Source: Pelomonas sp. Root1217 (GTDB taxonomy: Bacteria > Pseudomonadota > Gammaproteobacteria > Burkholderiales > Burkholderiaceae_C). Taken from it: a stretch of DNA of 64,000 nt. The DNA lies in contig NZ_LMDC01000012.1 of the NCBI RefSeq assembly GCF_001425705.1, positions 962,772-1,026,771 of the forward strand. The letters are read 5' to 3'. The notes beneath the pieces are model-generated. The model ran no database searches and was not told the DNA's origin. It worked only from the letters and a program-made list of their open reading frames with translations. Of this stretch, positions 2,104-60,328 are shown in pieces. How positions within the stretch are numbered: position 1 is the stretch's first letter; each line of letters starts with the position of its first letter. Both the position numbers and the translations under genes were made by a program.

Positions 2104-4386
<2,283 letters not shown>

Positions 4387-4514: not shown

Positions 4515-6725
4515 ATGCAAGAAACGCCCGTTGACGATGACCTGCTCGAGCTGCTCGACGACCCCGAGCCTGCTGAAAGCGAGCATCGCCCGCAGAACCG
4601 GCCCTGGCGCATCCTCATCGTCGACGACGACGGCGACGTCCACAAGGCCACCGAACTGGCCATGCAGGGCCTGACCGTCGAAGGCCAGCCCCTCGTCTTC
4701 CTGCACGCCTCCTCCGCCGCCCAGGCCCGCCAGTTGCTGGGCAGCGAGGACGACCTCGCCGTCGTGCTGCTGGATGTCGTCATGGAGAGCGAAGATGCCG
4801 GCCTGCAGCTGGTGCGTCACATCCGTGACGAGCTGTGCCTGAACGCCGTGCGCATCGTGCTGCGCACCGGCCAGCCCGGCTACGCGCCCGAAATCGAGAC
4901 GGTGCAGGCCTATGACATCAACGACTACAAGACCAAGTCGGAGCTGACCCGCACGCGGCTGTACACGGTGCTGACGGCCGCGGTGCGCTCCTACCGCCAG
5001 ATCTGCGCGCTGGAGGCCAACCGCCGCGGCCTGGAGATGATCGTCGAGAGCAGCACGTCGCTGTCGCGCATGCGCGGGCTCAGCCGTTTTGCCGAAGGCG
5101 TCGTCACCCAGCTCTGCGCCCTGCTCGGCATCCTGCCCGAGGGCCTGGTCTGTGCCCAGGTCAGCGGCGAGACGGGCGACGAAGTCCGCATCGTCGCAGC
5201 CGCCGGCCAGTACAGCGGCCTCATCGACCGGCCCCTGGCCCAGGTCAAGATCGCCACCGTGCGGGACCGCCTGGAGCGCTGCCTGCAACAGGAGCGCAAC
5301 CTCTACGACGACGGCACGGTCCTGTACTTCGGCATGGGCAAGGGGCGCGCGATGGCGGCGCTTGTGGATGTCGGCCGTGAGCTCGACGAGCTCGACCAGC
5401 AGCTGTTGCGGGCCTTCTGCTCCAACATCTCGGTCGGCTTCGAGAACGTGGTGCTGTACAGCCAGCTGCTGGACCAGGCCTACAACGATCCGCTGCTGCG
5501 CCTGCCCAACCGCAACCGCTTCGTCGAGCTGCTCGACAAGAACCTGAAGGACCCATCCGGCGTCACGCTCGCGCTGATCGACATCGACGACTTCTCCGAC
5601 ATCAACGATGCCTTCGGTCACCACTTCGGCGACCAGGTGCTGCAGGCTGTCGTGCACCGCATGAGCGATGTGCTGGGCCTGAACACCGCGATGGCCCGCG
5701 TCGGTGCCGACACTTTCGGCGTGCTGGGCGAGCATGCCAAGGTCTGCCCCGAGACCGTCAACGGCGTCTTCGCCGACCCCTTCGTCGTGGCCGGCGAGCG
5801 GCTGCAGCTGTCGGCCACGACGGGCCTCGTGCGCCTGGGCGAATCCAAGGCCGTCGGCTCCGAGCTGCTGCTCGATGCCCAGATCGCGCTCAAGCGCGCC
5901 AAGCAACAGCAGCGCGGCTCATCTCAGTACTTCTCTGCCGCCATGGGCAGCGACGCGCGCGAGCGCTTCAAGCTGCTCAAGGGCCTGCGCACCGGCTTTG
6001 AGGAAAGCCAGCTCTTCGTCGTCTACCAGCCCCAGGTCGAGCTGAGCAGCAGCCGCATCGTCGGCGCCGAGGCCCTGCTGCGCTGGAAGACGCTGGATGG
6101 TCGTTTCATCCCACCCGACCAGTTCATTCCGCTGGCCGAGCAGAGCGGCCTCATCATTCCCATCGGCGAGTTCGTCATGCGCACGTCCTGCGCGCAGCTG
6201 AAGAAGATGCAGGCCCTGGGCCATGCCGACTTCCGCATGGCCGTCAACGTGTCCATGGCCCAGTTCCGGCATCCCGGCTTCATCGACATGCTGGGCCGCG
6301 CGCTGCAGGACTGCGGCGTCGCCGGCCAGAACATCGAGCTCGAGATCACCGAGTCCATGGCCATGGAGGATGCCGACCTCGTGCTGCGCGTGCTGGCCGA
6401 CATCAAGCGCCTGGGTTTCAGCGTCGCCATCGACGACTTCGGCACCGGCTTCTCTTCGCTGAGCCAGCTGCGCCAGCTGCAGGTCGACCGCCTCAAGATC
6501 GACCGCGCCTTCGTGCAGGAGGCCCAAGCCTCATCGGCGGGCTCGACCATCGCCCAGATGGTCATCAACCTCGGCCGCGGCCTGGGCCTGACCGTCATCG
6601 CCGAAGGCATCGAGACCGAGGAGCAGCGCCAGTACCTGATTGGCCTGGGCTGCCATGAGGGTCAAGGCTGGCTGTTCGCCCGGCCCATGCCCGCGGACCA
6701 ACTTGAAGTTTGGATGAACCGCTGA
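4515..6725 (+). CDS. REC-DUF3369-GGDEF(degenerate)-EAL signalling protein
   Basis: A 736-residue cytosolic response regulator predicted to break down cyclic di-GMP. An N-terminal receiver with D87 is followed by DUF3369 (about 165-315), a GGDEF-type domain and an EAL domain. The signature GGDEF is GADTF (397-401), so cyclase activity is unlikely. The EAL domain looks complete: E519-A-L-L-R, ELEITES, IDDFGTGFSSL, KIDRAFV, IAEGIETEEQ and GQGWLFARP. No kinase is adjacent, so the partner is unknown. The gene is single, with about 130 bases of leader after ygiQ. Confidence 0.9.
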   Translation: MQETPVDDDLLELLDDPEPAESEHRPQNRPWRILIVDDDGDVHKATELAMQGLTVEGQPLVFLHASSAAQARQLLGSEDDLAVVLLDVVMESEDAGLQLVRHIRDELCLNAVRIVLRTGQPGYAPEIETVQAYDINDYKTKSELTRTRLYTVLTAAVRSYRQICALEANRRGLEMIVESSTSLSRMRGLSRFAEGVVTQLCALLGILPEGLVCAQVSGETGDEVRIVAAAGQYSGLIDRPLAQVKIATVRDRLERCLQQERNLYDDGTVLYFGMGKGRAMAALVDVGRELDELDQQLLRAFCSNISVGFENVVLYSQLLDQAYNDPLLRLPNRNRFVELLDKNLKDPSGVTLALIDIDDFSDINDAFGHHFGDQVLQAVVHRMSDVLGLNTAMARVGADTFGVLGEHAKVCPETVNGVFADPFVVAGERLQLSATTGLVRLGESKAVGSELLLDAQIALKRAKQQQRGSSQYFSAAMGSDARERFKLLKGLRTGFEESQLFVVYQPQVELSSSRIVGAEALLRWKTLDGRFIPPDQFIPLAEQSGLIIPIGEFVMRTSCAQLKKMQALGHADFRMAVNVSMAQFRHPGFIDMLGRALQDCGVAGQNIELEITESMAMEDADLVLRVLADIKRLGFSVAIDDFGTGFSSLSQLRQLQVDRLKIDRAFVQEAQASSAGSTIAQMVINLGRGLGLTVIAEGIETEEQRQYLIGLGCHEGQGWLFARPMPADQLEVWMNR

Positions 6726-48797: not shown

Positions 48798-48947
48798 ATG
48801 AGCAACGCACGGCCGCCCGAAGGGGCTCATTCCCGCTCGGCGGGAGTGAGCCCGGACTTGAGATGCCCTGAGGGCATCTCGAGCCTGGAGAACGCCTGGC
48901 CGCTCCGCCGGCCAGGCAAGCGCGCAGCGCGAAGGGTGCATCAGTGA
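48798..48947 (+). other. Possible leader ORF before the Ser/Thr kinase
   Basis: A 49-codon frame begins MSNARPPEGA, loosely like the kinase's own start (MTADARDDEA), runs through three hairpins and stops with TGA overlapping the kinase GTG (GTGA). It has no good ribosome site but a promoter-like stretch in front. It resembles, more weakly, the duplicated starts at mccA and hpd. The resemblance could be chance. Confidence 0.35.
48823..48917. repeat. Array of three hairpins before the Ser/Thr kinase gene
   Basis: GGGCTCATTCCCGC/GCGGGAGTGAGCCC around TCG (48823-48853, one G:U-type mismatch), GAGATGCCC/GGGCATCTC around TGA (48860-48880), and GCCTGGCCG/CGGCCAGGC around CTCCGC (48894-48917). The first two have three-base loops, as in the other hairpin arrays of the window. 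The array fills the gap in front of the kinase gene. Confidence 0.75.
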
Positions 48948-54474: not shown

Positions 54475-55434
54475 ATGCAACGTGTTGTGTCCCAGAAATT
54501 CAAGCGCACCCTGGCCCTGGCCACGGTGGCAGCGGCCGCGCTGATCGCCGGCTGCGGCGGTGGCAGCACCCAGCAGATCGACCCCTTTTCGCCGACCCGC
54601 GTCATCGCCTTCGGCGACGAGATGGGCACCATCCTGCAAAGCGGCAAGAAGTACACGATCAACGGCCTGAATGCCGACACCAGGCTGGTTGACTGCACGC
54701 TCAGCCCGGTCTGGAGCCAGATCCTGGCGGTCGGCTTCCGCTTCGTCTACCCTCAGTGCAACAAGGATTTCGTCGCGCTGCCCCAGGGCATCATGTACGC
54801 GGCACTGGGCGACAAGGTGGCCGATGTGCGCGACAAGATCGACCAGCATCTGTCCAACGACCGCTTCGGCCCCAAGGACATCGTGGCCATCATGGTCGGC
54901 GTCAACGACATCCTCGAGCTGTATCGCCAGTTCCCGGCCCAGAGCCGTGACTCGTTGATCAACGAAGCCAAGGCGCGCGGCAAGCTGCTGGCCGACCAGG
55001 TCAACCGCATCGCCAACGCCAACGGCCGAGTGCTGGTGGCCACCATCTTCGACGTCGGCCTGACGCCCTTCGGCCAAAAGGAAAGGCAGCAGCAGACTGA
55101 CATCGACCGCGCCATCTTCCTGAACGACCTGAGCGCAGCTTTCAATACGGCCATGCGTCTGAACCTGCTCAATGACGGCCGCCTGGTCGGTCTTGTGCTT
55201 GTTGACGAAACCATCCAGCAGATCGCGCGCTTCCCAGCCGCCTTCGGCTACTCCGATGTGACGAACGCTGCCTGCCGCAGTGACGTCGCCCCGCAGGACT
55301 GCACGACAGACACGCTGGTGGCCGAGGCCGACCCCACGCTATGGTTGTGGGCCGGCGACACGCTGCTGGGCCCGAAAGCGCAGAACAGTATCGGCAACCA
55401 GGCGCTCGCGCGCGCCAGAAACAACCCGTTTTAG
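54475..55434 (+). CDS. SGNH/GDSL-fold lipoprotein, probably inactive
   Basis: A 319-residue lipoprotein (leader to LIAGC, Cys27). It has the SGNH-hydrolase order: block I FGDEMG (46-51), block III GVNDILEL, and a C-terminal segment before the last helix. Block I has Glu49 where the nucleophile Ser of GDSL should be, and block V reads GDTLLG where D-x-x-H is expected, so both Ser and His are absent. It is therefore unlikely to be an esterase and may be a binding or structural protein. It starts 25 bases behind the Sua5-type gene. Confidence 0.75.
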   Translation: MQRVVSQKFKRTLALATVAAAALIAGCGGGSTQQIDPFSPTRVIAFGDEMGTILQSGKKYTINGLNADTRLVDCTLSPVWSQILAVGFRFVYPQCNKDFVALPQGIMYAALGDKVADVRDKIDQHLSNDRFGPKDIVAIMVGVNDILELYRQFPAQSRDSLINEAKARGKLLADQVNRIANANGRVLVATIFDVGLTPFGQKERQQQTDIDRAIFLNDLSAAFNTAMRLNLLNDGRLVGLVLVDETIQQIARFPAAFGYSDVTNAACRSDVAPQDCTTDTLVAEADPTLWLWAGDTLLGPKAQNSIGNQALARARNNPF

Positions 55435-55443
55435 CCCACCCCC

Positions 55444-55530
55444 GAGGCGCTCACTGCCAAGGCCAGAGGCCTTGTCCTTCGGCAGGCACAAACAGTCCTC
55501 AGGACTGTTTGTGTCCGGCCTCAGTGCCTC
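55444..55530 (+). repeat. Structured hairpin element, copy A
   Basis: In order: outer arm GAGGC...ACTG (55444-55456); hairpin AAGGCC-AGA-GGCCTT (55459-55473); linker GTCCTTCGGCAGGCA (55474-55488); hairpin CAAACAGTCC-TCA-GGACTGTTTG (55489-55511); tail TGTCCGGCCTCAG (55512-55524); closing CAGT-GCCTC (55522-55530). Linker and tail are identical in copy B at 60.2 kb, while the outer stem bases differ with pairing kept. It lies between two convergent genes, with a further C/G-rich hairpin (CCCCC/GGGGG) just behind it. Nothing else is seen in the 192-base gap. Confidence 0.8.
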
Positions 55531-55626
55531 CCCCTCAAGGGGGCGCAGCCAGTGGCCTGGCAAAGCCAGTTCCACGGCTGCTACTGGAGGGGCGGCCAGC
55601 CTGCGGCGGCCTGGGAAATGCCGCCG

Positions 55627-57360
55627 TTAGGCCGTAATGGTGCGCAGTTCGCGGCGCAGGATCTTGCCGACGTTGCTCTTGGGCAGTTCGTCGCGGAACT
55701 CGATGAATCGGGGCCGCTTGTAGGCCGTCATCTGTGCCGTGCAGTAGCTGGCCAGGTCTTCCTCGGCCAGGGCGGGGTCGCTCTTGACGACGAAGAGCTT
55801 GACCGCCTCGCCCGATTTGGCGTCCGGCACGCCCACCGCAGCACACTCCAGCACGCCCGGGTGCATGTTGACGACCTGCTCGATCTCGGTCGGGTAGACG
55901 TTGAAGCCGCTGACCAGGATCATGTCCTTCTTGCGGTCGACGATGCGCACATAGCCACGCTCGTCCATGATGCCGATGTCGCCGGTCTTGAAGTAGCCGT
56001 CGGCGCACATGACGTTGGCGGTCTCGTCAGGGCGCTTCCAGTAGCCGGCCATGACTTGGGGGCCGCGGATGCAGATCTCGCCGCGTTCGCCGATGGGCAG
56101 GTCGCGTCCCTCGTCGTCGCGAATGGCGATCTCGGTGGACGAGATGGGCAGGCCGATGCTGCCGTTGAAGGCGCGCTGGTCCAGCGGGTTGATGGTCGCG
56201 GCCGGCGAAGTCTCGGACAGGCCATACCCCTCGACGACCGGGCAGCCGGTGACCTTGAGCCATTTCTCCGCCGTGGCCTGCTGCACGGCCATGCCGCCGC
56301 CGTTGGAGATGACCAGTTCGGAGAAATCGAGCCGCGAGAAGCCCGGCTCGGCGGCCAGCGCGTTGAACAACGTGTTGACGGCCGGGAAGATGTGGATCTT
56401 GTGGCCGCGCAGCGTCTCGATGAAGCCGGGGATGTCGCGCGGGTTGGGCACCAGGATGTTGAGGTGGCCCATGCGCGCGCCGAGCATGAAGCAGGCCGTC
56501 AGCGCGAAGATGTGATACAGCGGCAGCGCACAGACATTCGTGAACTGCATGTTCTGGTCGGGCAGCCGGGCCAGCATGGGCTGGAACCAGGCTTCGACCT
56601 GCAGGATGTTGGCGACGATGTTGCGATGCAGCAGCGTCGCGCCCTTGGACACGCCGGTCGTACCACCGGTGTACTGCAGGAAGGCGACGTCGTCAGGGCC
56701 AAGTTCAGGCTTCTTCAGGTGCAGGCGCTCGCCATGGGCCAGTGCCTCATTGAAGCGCACGACGGTGCGGCCGTCACCTTGGGCCAGGCGGAACTCCGGC
56801 ACCATCTTCTTCAGGTGGCGCACGGCAAAGTTGATCAGCGGGCCCTTCCACCAGTTCAGCAGGTCGCCCATCGACGCCAGCACGACATGCTTCACGTCGG
56901 TCGCGTCGATGACCTCGGCCAGCGTGTGCGCGAAGTTCTCCAGCACGACGATGGCGCGCGCGCCCGAGTCCTTGAGCTGATGCTCCAGTTCGCGCGGCGT
57001 GTACAGCGGGTTCACGTTCACGACAACGAAACCCGCGCGCAGGATGGCCGCGATGGCCACGCCGTATTGCAGCAGGTTGGGCATCATGATCGCGACGCGG
57101 TCGCCCTGCTTGAGCCCCTGGGCTTGCAACCAGGCGCCGAGCTGCATGGAGAGCCGGTCGATCTCCGAGAAGCGCATGCGCTGGCCCATGCAGATCGCAG
57201 CGTCGCGCGAGGCGTGCTTGCGGAAGGCCTCATTGAGCAGGTCGACCAGCGAGCCGTAGATGCGGGTGTCGATCTGCGCCGGCACGCCGGCTGGGTAGCT
57301 GGCAAGCCAGGGCTTGGCGCTGGATGTCACTTCGGTGACTTCGGCAAGGACGGCGGTCAT
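55627..57360 (-). CDS. Long-chain acyl-CoA ligase (FadD-like)
   Basis: A 577-residue AMP-forming acyl-CoA synthetase. The ATP loop YTGGTTGVSKGATL, the family motif GYGLSETSP, YFKTGDIGIMDERGY and the C-terminal SNVGKILRRELR with the catalytic Lys are intact. It activates fatty acids for beta-oxidation. Chain-length preference cannot be read from sequence. No other beta-oxidation gene is adjacent. Confidence 0.92.
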   Translation of the reverse strand: MTAVLAEVTEVTSSAKPWLASYPAGVPAQIDTRIYGSLVDLLNEAFRKHASRDAAICMGQRMRFSEIDRLSMQLGAWLQAQGLKQGDRVAIMMPNLLQYGVAIAAILRAGFVVVNVNPLYTPRELEHQLKDSGARAIVVLENFAHTLAEVIDATDVKHVVLASMGDLLNWWKGPLINFAVRHLKKMVPEFRLAQGDGRTVVRFNEALAHGERLHLKKPELGPDDVAFLQYTGGTTGVSKGATLLHRNIVANILQVEAWFQPMLARLPDQNMQFTNVCALPLYHIFALTACFMLGARMGHLNILVPNPRDIPGFIETLRGHKIHIFPAVNTLFNALAAEPGFSRLDFSELVISNGGGMAVQQATAEKWLKVTGCPVVEGYGLSETSPAATINPLDQRAFNGSIGLPISSTEIAIRDDEGRDLPIGERGEICIRGPQVMAGYWKRPDETANVMCADGYFKTGDIGIMDERGYVRIVDRKKDMILVSGFNVYPTEIEQVVNMHPGVLECAAVGVPDAKSGEAVKLFVVKSDPALAEEDLASYCTAQMTAYKRPRFIEFRDELPKSNVGKILRRELRTITA

Positions 57361-58159: not shown

Positions 58160-59029
58160 ATGAACGGACGACTGCAAAGGATCTGGGTGTTGCTGCGGCT
58201 GGCCGTGGCGCTCGGCGTGGGTTGGCGCTTCGGCTGGGGCTGGGGGCTGCTGACGCTGGGCCTGCATGCGCTCATTCTGGCGGGGGGCTTCCTGCAATTG
58301 CGCTGGGTGAACCGGCCCGCACCGGCCTGGGGGCAACTGCTTCGCGCCTGGGCCCGAGAGGTCGTCGCCAGCGAACTGGCCTTCTCATGGCGCCAGCCCT
58401 GGCGTGAATGGGCCGAAGCGGACCATCTGCCGGCGGGCGCCGCGCAAGGCGTGTTGCTGGTGCACGGCTTTTCCTGCAATCGTGGCCGCTGGAATGGCTG
58501 GATGGAACGGCTGCGCGAGCAAGGCGTCGCTTTCGTTGCGCCTTCGCTGGAGCCGGCTTTCGGCAGCATCGATGCCTATGCCGACAAAATCGAGGCCGGC
58601 GTGCAACGGCTGAAGACACTGACAGGCCGCATGCCCATCTTGTGCGCGCACAGCATGGGCGGGCTGGCGCTGCGGGCCTGGTGGCGCCGCTTCGGCGCGG
58701 GGCATGAAGCGCCGCATGTCATCACGTTGGGATCGCCCCACCAGGGCACGCGCATGGCAGCGCTCGGTCTGGGCGTCAACACGCAGCAAATGCGCCTGGG
58801 CAACGCCTGGCTGGCCGCCCTGCCCGGGCTGCCGGACGTCGACTGCTTCTGGACGCCCTGCGACCAGATCGTCAACCCGGCCGAACGGGCCATCCTGGTC
58901 GGTGCGCGGGCGCACCGGCTGGATGGCGTTGGCCACATGGGCCTCGTCCATTCGGAAGAGGCCTGGCAGTGTCTTCAGACCGCCTTGGCTTCGTCCTTCG
59001 TGTCGGTCAGCACGCCGCGGCGGATCTGA
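58160..59029 (+). CDS. Alpha/beta hydrolase, membrane-anchored lipase-like
   Basis: A 289-residue hydrolase. Two hydrophobic helices at the N-terminus (about 8-50) anchor it. The oxyanion segment VLLVHGFSCNRG, nucleophile elbow AHSMGG, the acid Asp in WTPCDQIVNP and the final His in GVGHMGLVHS complete the triad. It resembles triacylglycerol lipase-like permease-associated esterases; substrate unknown. Its last 55 bases overlap the end of hpd on the other strand. Confidence 0.85.
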   Translation: MNGRLQRIWVLLRLAVALGVGWRFGWGWGLLTLGLHALILAGGFLQLRWVNRPAPAWGQLLRAWAREVVASELAFSWRQPWREWAEADHLPAGAAQGVLLVHGFSCNRGRWNGWMERLREQGVAFVAPSLEPAFGSIDAYADKIEAGVQRLKTLTGRMPILCAHSMGGLALRAWWRRFGAGHEAPHVITLGSPHQGTRMAALGLGVNTQQMRLGNAWLAALPGLPDVDCFWTPCDQIVNPAERAILVGARAHRLDGVGHMGLVHSEEAWQCLQTALASSFVSVSTPRRI

Positions 59030-60120
59030 TCCAGCTCGATGCTCTCGAACAGGGCCTTGAAGTTGCCCTCACCGAAACCCTCGTTGCCCTTGCGCTGGAT
59101 CAGCTCGAAGAAGATCGGCCCGATCACTTCCTTGGTGAAGATCTGCAGCAGCAGCTCGTTGTCCACGCCCAGGTGGGTGGCGCCGTCGATGAGGATGCGC
59201 AGGCGGCGCAGCTCGTCCACGTTCTCGCCATGGCCCGGCAGGCGCTTGTCGATCAGGTCGAAGTAGGTTTCGATGGTGTCCTGAAACTGCACGCCCGTGT
59301 TCTTCATGCCCTCGACCGTGCCGTAGATGTCGGTCGTGCCCAGCGCCACGTGCTGGATGCCTTCGCCGTGGTACAGGTCCAGGTACTCGGCGATCTGGCT
59401 CTTGTCGTCGCTGCTCTCGTTGATCGGGATGCGGATCTTGCCGCAGGGGCTGGTCATGGCCTTGCTCTTCAGGCCGGTCAGCTTGCCCTCGATGTCGAAG
59501 TAGCGCACCTCGCGGAAGTTGAAGAAGCGCTCGTAGAACTCCGACCATTCCTTCATGCGGCCGCGGAAGACGTTGTGCGTCAGGTGGTCGATCTCGGTCA
59601 GGCCGTGGCCCACCGGGTTGGGATCGACCGGCTTGCCCTGCGCGTCCAGCACGGGCACGAAGTCCACGTCGTAGATCGAGATGTTGCCGATGGCACCGGG
59701 TTGGGCGCCATGCTTGCCCTGCCAGCGGTCGACGAAATAGATCAGCGAGTCGCCGATGCCCTTGATGGCCGGGATGTTCAGCTCCATCGGCCCGGCCTTG
59801 TTGTCGAAACCCCAGGCGCCCAGTTCCAGCGCACGCTTGTAGGCGTGGCCGGCGTCCTGCACGCGCAAGGCGATGGCGCAGATCGACGGGCCGTGCAGGC
59901 GTGCGAAGCGCTGCGCGAACGAGTCGGTCTCGGCATTGATGATGAAGTTGACGCCGCCCTGCCGATACAGCGTCACGCTCTTGTGGCGGTGCTTGGCGAC
60001 GGCCTTGAAGCCCATGGTCTCGAACAGCTTGCCCAGGCCCGCCGGATCGGGCGCGGCGAACTCGATGAACTCGAAACCGTCGGTGCCCATCGGATTTTCC
60101 CAAGGAATGAACTTGCTCAT
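58975..60120 (-). CDS. hpd: 4-hydroxyphenylpyruvate dioxygenase
   Basis: A 381-residue non-haem iron enzyme turning 4-hydroxyphenylpyruvate into homogentisate in tyrosine breakdown. The iron ligands are H179 (EIDHLTH), H257 (GIQHVAL) and E339 (FFELIQRKG); two VOC modules and the family's C-terminal NFKALFESIELDQ are present. The start is ATG 60120 (MSKFIPWENPMG). A near-copy of these 12 codons lies 150 bases upstream with a hairpin element between. An Lrp-type gene is divergent, as often seen for hpd. Confidence 0.96.
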   Translation of the reverse strand: MSKFIPWENPMGTDGFEFIEFAAPDPAGLGKLFETMGFKAVAKHRHKSVTLYRQGGVNFIINAETDSFAQRFARLHGPSICAIALRVQDAGHAYKRALELGAWGFDNKAGPMELNIPAIKGIGDSLIYFVDRWQGKHGAQPGAIGNISIYDVDFVPVLDAQGKPVDPNPVGHGLTEIDHLTHNVFRGRMKEWSEFYERFFNFREVRYFDIEGKLTGLKSKAMTSPCGKIRIPINESSDDKSQIAEYLDLYHGEGIQHVALGTTDIYGTVEGMKNTGVQFQDTIETYFDLIDKRLPGHGENVDELRRLRILIDGATHLGVDNELLLQIFTKEVIGPIFFELIQRKGNEGFGEGNFKALFESIELDQIRRGVLTDTKDEAKAV

Positions 60121-60170
60121 GGATGGTCTTTCTTCGGTCAAACGGTTGTCTAAGGGAGAGGCACCCAGCC

Positions 60171-60237
60171 GGGGCCAGCGGCCCCCGTCCTTCGGCAGGC
60201 AGTGCGAGTCCACTGGACTCGCACTGTCCGGCCTCAG
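60171..60237 (+). repeat. Structured hairpin element, copy B
   Basis: Hairpin GGGGCC-AGC-GGCCCC (60171-60185), linker GTCCTTCGGCAGGCA (60187-60201), hairpin GTGCGAGTCC-ACT-GGACTCGCAC (60202-60224), tail TGTCCGGCCTCAG (60225-60237). Same plan, linker and tail as copy A at 55.45 kb; stems differ by compensatory changes. It lies between hpd and the duplicated hpd start, in the orientation opposite to hpd. Confidence 0.8.
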
Positions 60238-60272
60238 CCCATCGGGTTGTCCCAGGGGGTGAACTTGGCCAT
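60234..60272 (-). pseudogene. Duplicated hpd start (12 codons)
   Basis: MAKFTPWDNPMG followed by TGA, against MSKFIPWENPMG of the real gene: 9 of 12 residues identical and three conservative; 29 of 36 bases identical. GGAGACATTTC gives it a good ribosome site, better than that of hpd itself. The match ends exactly where the hairpin element begins (its tail supplies the TGA). It is either a translated leader peptide or a remnant of an older 5' end. Confidence 0.7.
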
Positions 60273-60328
60273 GAAATGTCTCCAGCGGCGTGATGCTTGA
60301 AAACGAAAATTCTGCGGCGCGGTTCGCG

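Follow-up and report, generated by a model that had tools for sequence, protein, structure and literature searches.

Integron attC sites are recognised as folded single strands via their extrahelical bases and carry RYYYAAC/GTTRRRY boxes, while the ERIC and Correia/NEMIS repeats are single elements. Both of the latter are named in the report on the betaproteobacterial repeat BRE (PMC3110155), which in its accessible part gives BRE as 75–91 bp long and 69% GC, mostly intergenic, sometimes tandem and variable between strains (Hot et al. 2011, PMC3110155). Its hosts there are the Comamonadaceae, Bordetella and one Azoarcus, and its function is given as unknown (PMC3110155). REP sequences are defined, in the portion of the source available here, by a conserved GTAG-type tetranucleotide before the hairpin foot (PMC8266576). 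A weak Burkholderiales-1 motif without an Rfam number is listed in PMC2864571, and a word search of the accessible text of PMC3733652 found none of six Burkholderiales terms. Rfam 15 gave no match in the window described below and, at ten loci, seven sub-threshold matches, none overlapping the unit that we report; among the abstracts listed in literature searches, none named its HP1/HP2 fold.

Architecture of the repeat unit

The window is a stretch of 64,000 nucleotides from Pelomonas sp. Root1217, in which a preliminary description had reported two copies, A and B, of a structured repeat. Both copies lie where it had placed them, and the compensatory stem changes between them are as it described. 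The extent given for copy A (55444..55530) contains a real repeat, but the unit itself is about 68 nt long (55457..55524, minus strand) and consists of a first hairpin, HP1 (48 nt, 55477–55524), followed by a second, HP2 (20 nt, 55457–55476). Copy B occupies 60170..60237 on the minus strand, with HP1 at 60190–60237 and HP2 at 60170–60189. A covariance model of HP1 (R1), built from 45 sequences, scores copy A at 72.1 bits (E = 7.8 × 10−24) and copy B at 72.4 bits (E = 5.8 × 10−24). It also recovers a diverged HP1 on the plus strand, copy C (48846..48893; 41.0 bits, E = 2.4 × 10−12), which has compensated arms (GTGAGC..GAGAAC) with one arm pair broken and an HP2 of its own at 48894..48917 on the plus strand (GCCTGGCC .. 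GGCCAGGC). Weaker model matches are also present in the window, the best at 16.6 bits (E = 0.0025).

Read on the minus strand, copies A and B run CTGAGGCCGGACA, hairpin, TGCCTGCCGAAG (together HP1) and then HP2. The linker and tail, formerly taken for spacers, pair with each other around the variable hairpin (GGCAGGCA / TGTCCGGCC) and form the lower stem of HP1, which rules out an unpaired linker and tail. Irregularities of this lower stem comprise an internal loop, a mismatch and a bulge, the pairing order being C-G and U-A, tandem G-A/A-G, GGC/GCC, a C-U mismatch, GG/CC, a bulged A and the apical stem. A K-turn was considered and rejected: the tandem G-A is present, but the adjoining three-base bulge is absent by eye. 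Three-base loops, reported earlier for all hairpins, are usual but not universal across copies. Roughly half of the copies looked at extend into a third hairpin with a TGCAA loop, and a TGCAAG-type loop lies beyond the unit in 48 of 97 copies. The unit ends were deduced from two nested insertions in other genomes (L318 and L301), and those of copy A are set by analogy with the empty/filled comparison in these loci, to within two bases.

Taken alone, the window gives thin evidence, because a linker match with at most two mismatches, found twice compared with 0.36 expected, reached two or more in 6 of 100 shuffles, and because the 13-nt tail by itself is unremarkable (3 window matches compared with 3.3 expected). 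The exact linker GTCCTTCGGCAGGCA occurs at 55474 and 60187 only in a search of the whole genome. This weakness is what would favour a reading of the repeat as chance hairpins or an alignment artefact, a reading that we regard as refuted: exact arms around any hairpin (CTTCGGCAGGCA-N10..40-TGTCCGGCC) occur in 28 copies in the 6.6-Mb genome compared with 0 for the reversed-pattern control, and covariation among copies lies far above its controls.

Covariation and the strand that folds

In a MAFFT alignment of 74 sequences, whose arms are invariant because they were the search pattern, 93.9% of cells were paired compared with 80.9% after shuffling and at most 43% when the partner was slid, and we counted 260 double changes compared with 86 in shuffled alignments. 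Among 82 distinct, non-overlapping rows recovered with the covariance model, 97.4% of 1550 cells pair compared with 77.9% shuffled (the maximum of 200 shuffles was 79.6%), with 286 double changes compared with 77 and with double changes in 16 of 19 pairs. Before these counts we removed 14 of 114 rows for overlap, most of them opposite-strand rows of one place, and L290, which is short and weak. A 95-row set that still held 13 or so overlapping rows, again mostly opposite-strand, gave 97.5% paired cells, 328 double changes, 16 pairs with double changes and at most 46% pairing when partners were slid. The model-row alignments are fitted to the covariance model and hence lean towards it. Compensated arm variants among the model matches include CTGAGG..GCCGAAG, CTGAGC..GGCGAAG, GTGAGC..GGCGAAC, CCGAGC..GGCGAGG and CCGTAC with GACTGG. 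An alignment-free search also recovered HP2, with 14 positive flanks among 21 independent ones compared with 1.6 after shuffling; L278 (a second fetch of L262) and L290 were left out of all flank counts, namely those of HP2, of a preceding GG, of insertion 3′ of hairpins and of T runs and TGCAAG loops. Selection on the fold itself, which the preliminary description had proposed from two copies, thus has strong support from the covariation seen in sets of 74 and 82 distinct sequences.

Several unpaired bases of HP1 are nearly fixed across the 82 rows, including the bulged A (82/82), the T opposite the mismatched C (82/82) and the mismatched C itself (79/82). At the tandem G-A, three bases are kept in 80, 79 and 81 rows, and the fourth position is A in 70 and G in 10. 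The search itself favours part of this near-fixity, the model having been built on fixed-arm copies.

Imperfect pairs distinguish the two strands. Read on the strand that carries CTGA, the 82 rows contain 36 G-T and 5 A-C pairs, and 76 apical stems chosen regardless of pairing contain 31 and 6, respectively; the events are fewer than the cells (14 and 5 position-types) because several imperfect pairs share one origin. Because G-T exceeds A-C, the CTGA strand, which is the minus strand at A and B, is probably the one that folds. RNA energies make it the more stable strand for 65 rows out of 82 (P = 2 × 10−6), whereas DNA energies favour it in 35 of 82 (P = 0.29), which amounts to no strand preference. 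The strand evidence leans towards RNA without proving it. The earlier alternative of RNA or single-stranded DNA is thereby narrowed to one strand, whose pairing is kept, but not to one molecule.

A bacterial SINE would be compatible with several of these observations. The unit would then be a structured RNA some 68 nt long that is read from the CTGA strand, reverse-transcribed in trans and inserted behind GG, its fold afterwards serving as a host 3′-end element. Preserved G-U pairs, an energy preference confined to RNA, a target duplication of at most two bases in the nested case and a fold that persists in diverged copies all agree with such a history, yet none of them shows an RNA intermediate, and we consider it improbable.

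Copy number, insertion sites and gene context

The preliminary description had suggested scanning the genome with a covariance model built from the copies, and had named a lack of further copies, or further copies with non-covarying stems, as grounds for abandoning its idea. The scan found copies in at least 65 non-overlapping places in the same genome, a Roseateles relative (E ≤ 2 × 10−6; 150 candidates scored), and the stems covary. By contig strand the 65 places divide into 32 plus and 33 minus; with a GC skew over 20 windows too weak to call replichores, we set a replication-strand bias aside.

The exact-arm pattern was found in 18 of 20 genomes of the genus (this one included), in 1 of 16 other genera of the family and in 0 of 24 genomes of other families; within the genus, G011 has no exact-arm unit. 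Model matches were found in 63 of 200 genomes of the family (E = 10−3), in 7 of 300 in a sample of the order, again including this one (E = 10−6), and in 1 of 299 in a sample of the phylum, namely this genome. Searches over 40 genomes used stricter filters, by which weak matches are lost. Public contigs with the pattern came, among the matches listed, from Roseateles, Pelomonas, Mitsuaria, Paucibacter, Aquabacterium, Inhella, Rubrivivax and Sphaerotilus. Further listed matches were Burkholderiales bins, one bin titled Acidobacteria and seven that we took as chance and dropped by eye before the stem counts (five from other phyla, one Bradyrhizobium and one Duodenibacillus bin).

Copy A is itself embedded in a repeat. 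Upstream lies a plus-strand gene (54475..55434, stop TAG at 55432–55434) with a weak match, below Pfam’s cut-off, to a GDSL-like lipase domain. The left part of the host repeat, or frame (55435..55456, no strand assigned), starts directly after this stop, and its right part (55525..55620, no strand assigned, right end approximate) carries a CCCCCTCAAGGGGG hairpin and then GGCCTGGCAAAGCC hairpins. On the other side, a convergent minus-strand gene (55627..57360) encodes an AMP-binding, acyl-CoA ligase-like enzyme. The host repeat also occurs without the unit. By eye, 18 genomes with an orthologous upstream gene comprise five with the unit (G000, G002, G012, G013 and G018, a variant in the last two), five with the host repeat and no unit (G001, G008, where it is shortened, G009, G017 and G019) and eight with neither (G003, G005, G006, G007, G011, G014, G015 and G016); a 41%-identity match in G004 and the second G017 copy were left out. 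G012, the genome with the most similar upstream protein (90%), has the unit the other way round; its apical and HP2 stems are identical, its arm pair is CTGAGC, and the right part of the host repeat is absent. This orientation may reflect an inversion or a second insertion.

In L318 and L301, the 68-nt unit interrupts another repeat at one and the same point, CAGG^CGGG, and an uninterrupted neighbouring copy of that repeat in L318 provides the empty site. Read as 68 nt, the nested insertion has a target duplication of 0, and read as 66 nt it has a two-base duplication (GG). Both readings are equally compatible with the sequence, and the GG ahead of the unit may belong to the unit rather than to the target. 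Of 27 independent flanks, 16 have GG directly ahead of the unit, compared with a background of 0.099 (P = 4 × 10−10). L318 has, at about 1990–2210, two copies of a repeat that shares a stop codon with a gene resembling, by eye, tryptophan 2,3-dioxygenase; a nested unit lies in one copy. Insertion just 3′ of hairpins appeared in 55 of 97 flanks compared with 15 shuffled, but we dropped the idea because independent flanks gave 5 of 27 compared with 3.8 shuffled.

In G009 the variable loop of a tRNA-Arg gene is broken by a unit that includes the third hairpin, and Rfam’s tRNA model matches across it. Intron-like removal was considered and rejected, since an intact tRNA-Arg(acg) elsewhere in the genome means that no splicing is needed. 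In L061 / L082 (5122–5277, Roseateles caseinilyticus P7), a unit lies in the variable loop of a tRNA-Arg gene belonging to a tRNA cluster; ARAGORN misses this gene, Rfam’s tRNA model spans the unit, and the genome has an intact copy at another place.

Units paired in opposite orientation about 120 nt apart form a mosaic arrangement. Two facing composite repeats in Pelomonas aquatica (L122, about 2765–3005 and 5228–5455) flank two ordinary-looking genes; no transposase-like gene was seen by eye between these copies, and no full-length parent was found. Searches of plasmid, phage and viral-contig collections found no unit at their sensitivity, the plasmid searches at E up to 10 giving chance-like pieces only. 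A fragment of the right part of the copy A host repeat also occurs on Variovorax and Diaphorobacter megaplasmids; it is host repeat and not unit, and carriage by plasmids or phages was not retained as an explanation. The empty and filled sites support the earlier suggestion of a mobile structured element, and a unit that is mobile or recently mobile, non-autonomous and assembled into mosaics is a supported reading.

A simple codon-usage gene caller identified both neighbours for 85 units, and these neighbours are convergent in 35 cases, tandem in 47 and divergent in 3, whereas background intergenic regions number 34, 189 and 61, respectively; 9 of 98 places inside a called gene and 4 without a right neighbour were left out. 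Divergent contexts are few (P = 1.8 × 10−5 by bases) and convergent ones many (P = 7 × 10−7), both P values being too small because copies that share one host repeat are not independent. A facing stop codon lies within 100 nt of the unit in 66 of 86 cases, the left end of composite type I repeats falls 0–12 nt past a called stop in 27 of 33, and in 7 places the TGA of the unit’s CTGA is the called gene’s own stop. The counts support the 3′-end location that had been suggested for copy A.

Such a location, together with the preference of RNA energies for the CTGA strand, argues for a cis-acting RNA element at gene 3′ ends, kept by the host site by site, that would block 3′ exonucleases, aid termination or bind a protein and would spread passively with recombination. 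Orientation argues otherwise, since it varies by subfamily: relative to the nearest facing stop, CTGAGG-type units are antisense in 38 cases, sense in 7 and without such a stop in 1 (n = 46), CTGAGC-type units are sense in 16, antisense in 9 and without in 2 (n = 27), and the remaining types are sense in 11 and antisense in 5 (n = 16). G000 and G012 hold the unit of site A in opposite orientations. A run of four Ts was found in 0 of 97 copies within the stretches inspected, and copy A showed no terminator pattern; on these grounds we rejected an intrinsic terminator, in which a T run follows the hairpin. A function at gene 3′ ends is possible, but it is weakened by the two orientations, by the lack of T runs and by the absence of the unit from site A in 13 of 18 genomes, and we hold a host-kept 3′-end element to be a rather doubtful account of the whole.

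Copy B differs from copy A in its setting. It lies upstream of the start of hppD (4-hydroxyphenylpyruvate dioxygenase; 58975..60120, minus strand), and in the interval 60090–60280 the gene has a first ATG and twelve codons ending at the unit’s TGA, followed by a different second start (MSKFIPWENPMG). The start is single and uninterrupted in 17 of 17 readable relatives (not counted are G004, where the contig ends, a second copy in G017 and, for want of a match, G010). We think that copy B and the rearranged hppD start are imported DNA and not a clean insertion.

We give about even chances to the reading that we prefer, in which the unit is mobile but non-autonomous, resembles REP/BIME, is recognised in the form of a folded single strand and is possibly reused at 3′ ends. 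Under this reading the CTGA strand would fold into HP2 and an HP1 in which the tandem G-A loop, the C-U mismatch and the bulged A sit below an apical stem that is free to vary. Given the strand bias and the fixity of the unpaired bases, we infer that a putative trans-acting enzyme would recognise the folded single strand by these bases, which may be the cause of the covariation, and would insert the unit with a preference behind GG. Landing places of units would be other repeats, hairpins, fellow units and the surroundings of stop codons, at which purifying selection may tolerate them, and tolerance of this kind may account for their location; landings like these would build mosaic repeats such as BIMEs. 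Against a mobile unit stand the lack of a linked transposase in the loci and collections searched and the energies, which show a strand preference for RNA and none for DNA. Its copies are moreover far diverged yet still paired, as those of a dead transposon would not be unless each copy were needed or still mobile.

Selection this clear on the fold of individual copies is rare among the short bacterial repeats known to us. Should the fold be the recognition site of a mobile enzyme, its fixed unpaired bases define the substrate and allow a search for the enzyme; should it be a host 3′-end element, gene ends in Burkholderiales have a widespread layer that has had no name. Under either reading, direct tests are offered by the covariance model together with the empty and filled sites.

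Comparison with known systems

REP sequences and BIMEs are the nearest kind. The unit shares with them a GC-rich hairpin with bulge and mismatch, an intergenic location, many copies and one distinguished strand; it is an imperfect palindrome of the kind associated with REP and RAYT, and like BIMEs it forms mosaics of palindromic units in alternating orientation. It differs in lacking a GTAG tag at the foot and, in the loci seen, a linked RAYT, in its strong compensatory variation between copies and in having two to three hairpins per unit. By eye, no GTAG is conserved before CTGA, the preceding flank being GG-rich, and no unit was found to flank a RAYT in six RAYT loci of about 3 kb each. Because both the GTAG tag and a flanking RAYT were looked for and neither was found, we do not file the unit as REP/BIME.

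A classical REP/BIME spread by a RAYT (TnpA-REP) transposase would fit the hairpins with bulge and mismatch, the intergenic mosaics in both orientations and the PF01797 genes found in 13 of 13 genus genomes searched. The six RAYT loci (five of them from the genus, and not a complete survey) speak against it, as they contain no unit by the model and none by the pattern either, save a 10-base match to a composite-repeat end in L184; three loci read by eye carry a GGGGTCGGAGT repeat instead. RAYT is also present in G011 despite the lack of an exact-arm unit there, and the GTAG tag is absent before the hairpin foot. We rejected RAYT as the partner, as the six loci are not flanked by the unit, and judge spread by this transposase unlikely. 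RAYT-type (PF01797) genes of the genus in L180, L181 and L183 have GGGGTCGGAGT-like repeats of their own close by.

The likeness to attC lies in a folded single strand with extrahelical bases, a variable terminal stem and a site just behind a stop codon. The RYYYAAC/GTTRRRY motif was not seen by eye and there is no cassette array, and we rejected attC. ERIC and Correia/NEMIS repeats are likewise short, non-autonomous, intergenic and folded into hairpins; the unit differs from them in forming a composite of units that come and go separately.

BRE bears on the earlier statement that no named family fits, which holds for Rfam but overlooks a published repeat of the same bacterial class (PMC3110155), compared here by description and not by letters. 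That the unit is BRE or a branch of it is a question of identity, compatible with the other readings, and we entertain it tentatively. In the accessible part of the source, BRE appears to resemble the unit in size, GC content, taxa, mostly intergenic position, tandem or clustered arrangement, suspected mobility and lack of a known function, the unit being about 68 nt, or longer with the third hairpin, compared with 75–91 bp. Counting against identity, a second family of the order (f32) gave model matches in 0 of 398 genomes and a third (f8) one weak match each in 7 of 392, either of which may or may not hold Bordetella. The difference in the accessible text is that no covarying fold is described for BRE (PMC3110155). 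If BRE is the same family, what is new here would be the covarying fold, its strand, the unit ends and the nesting, and the covariance model could give the unexplained BRE a structure.
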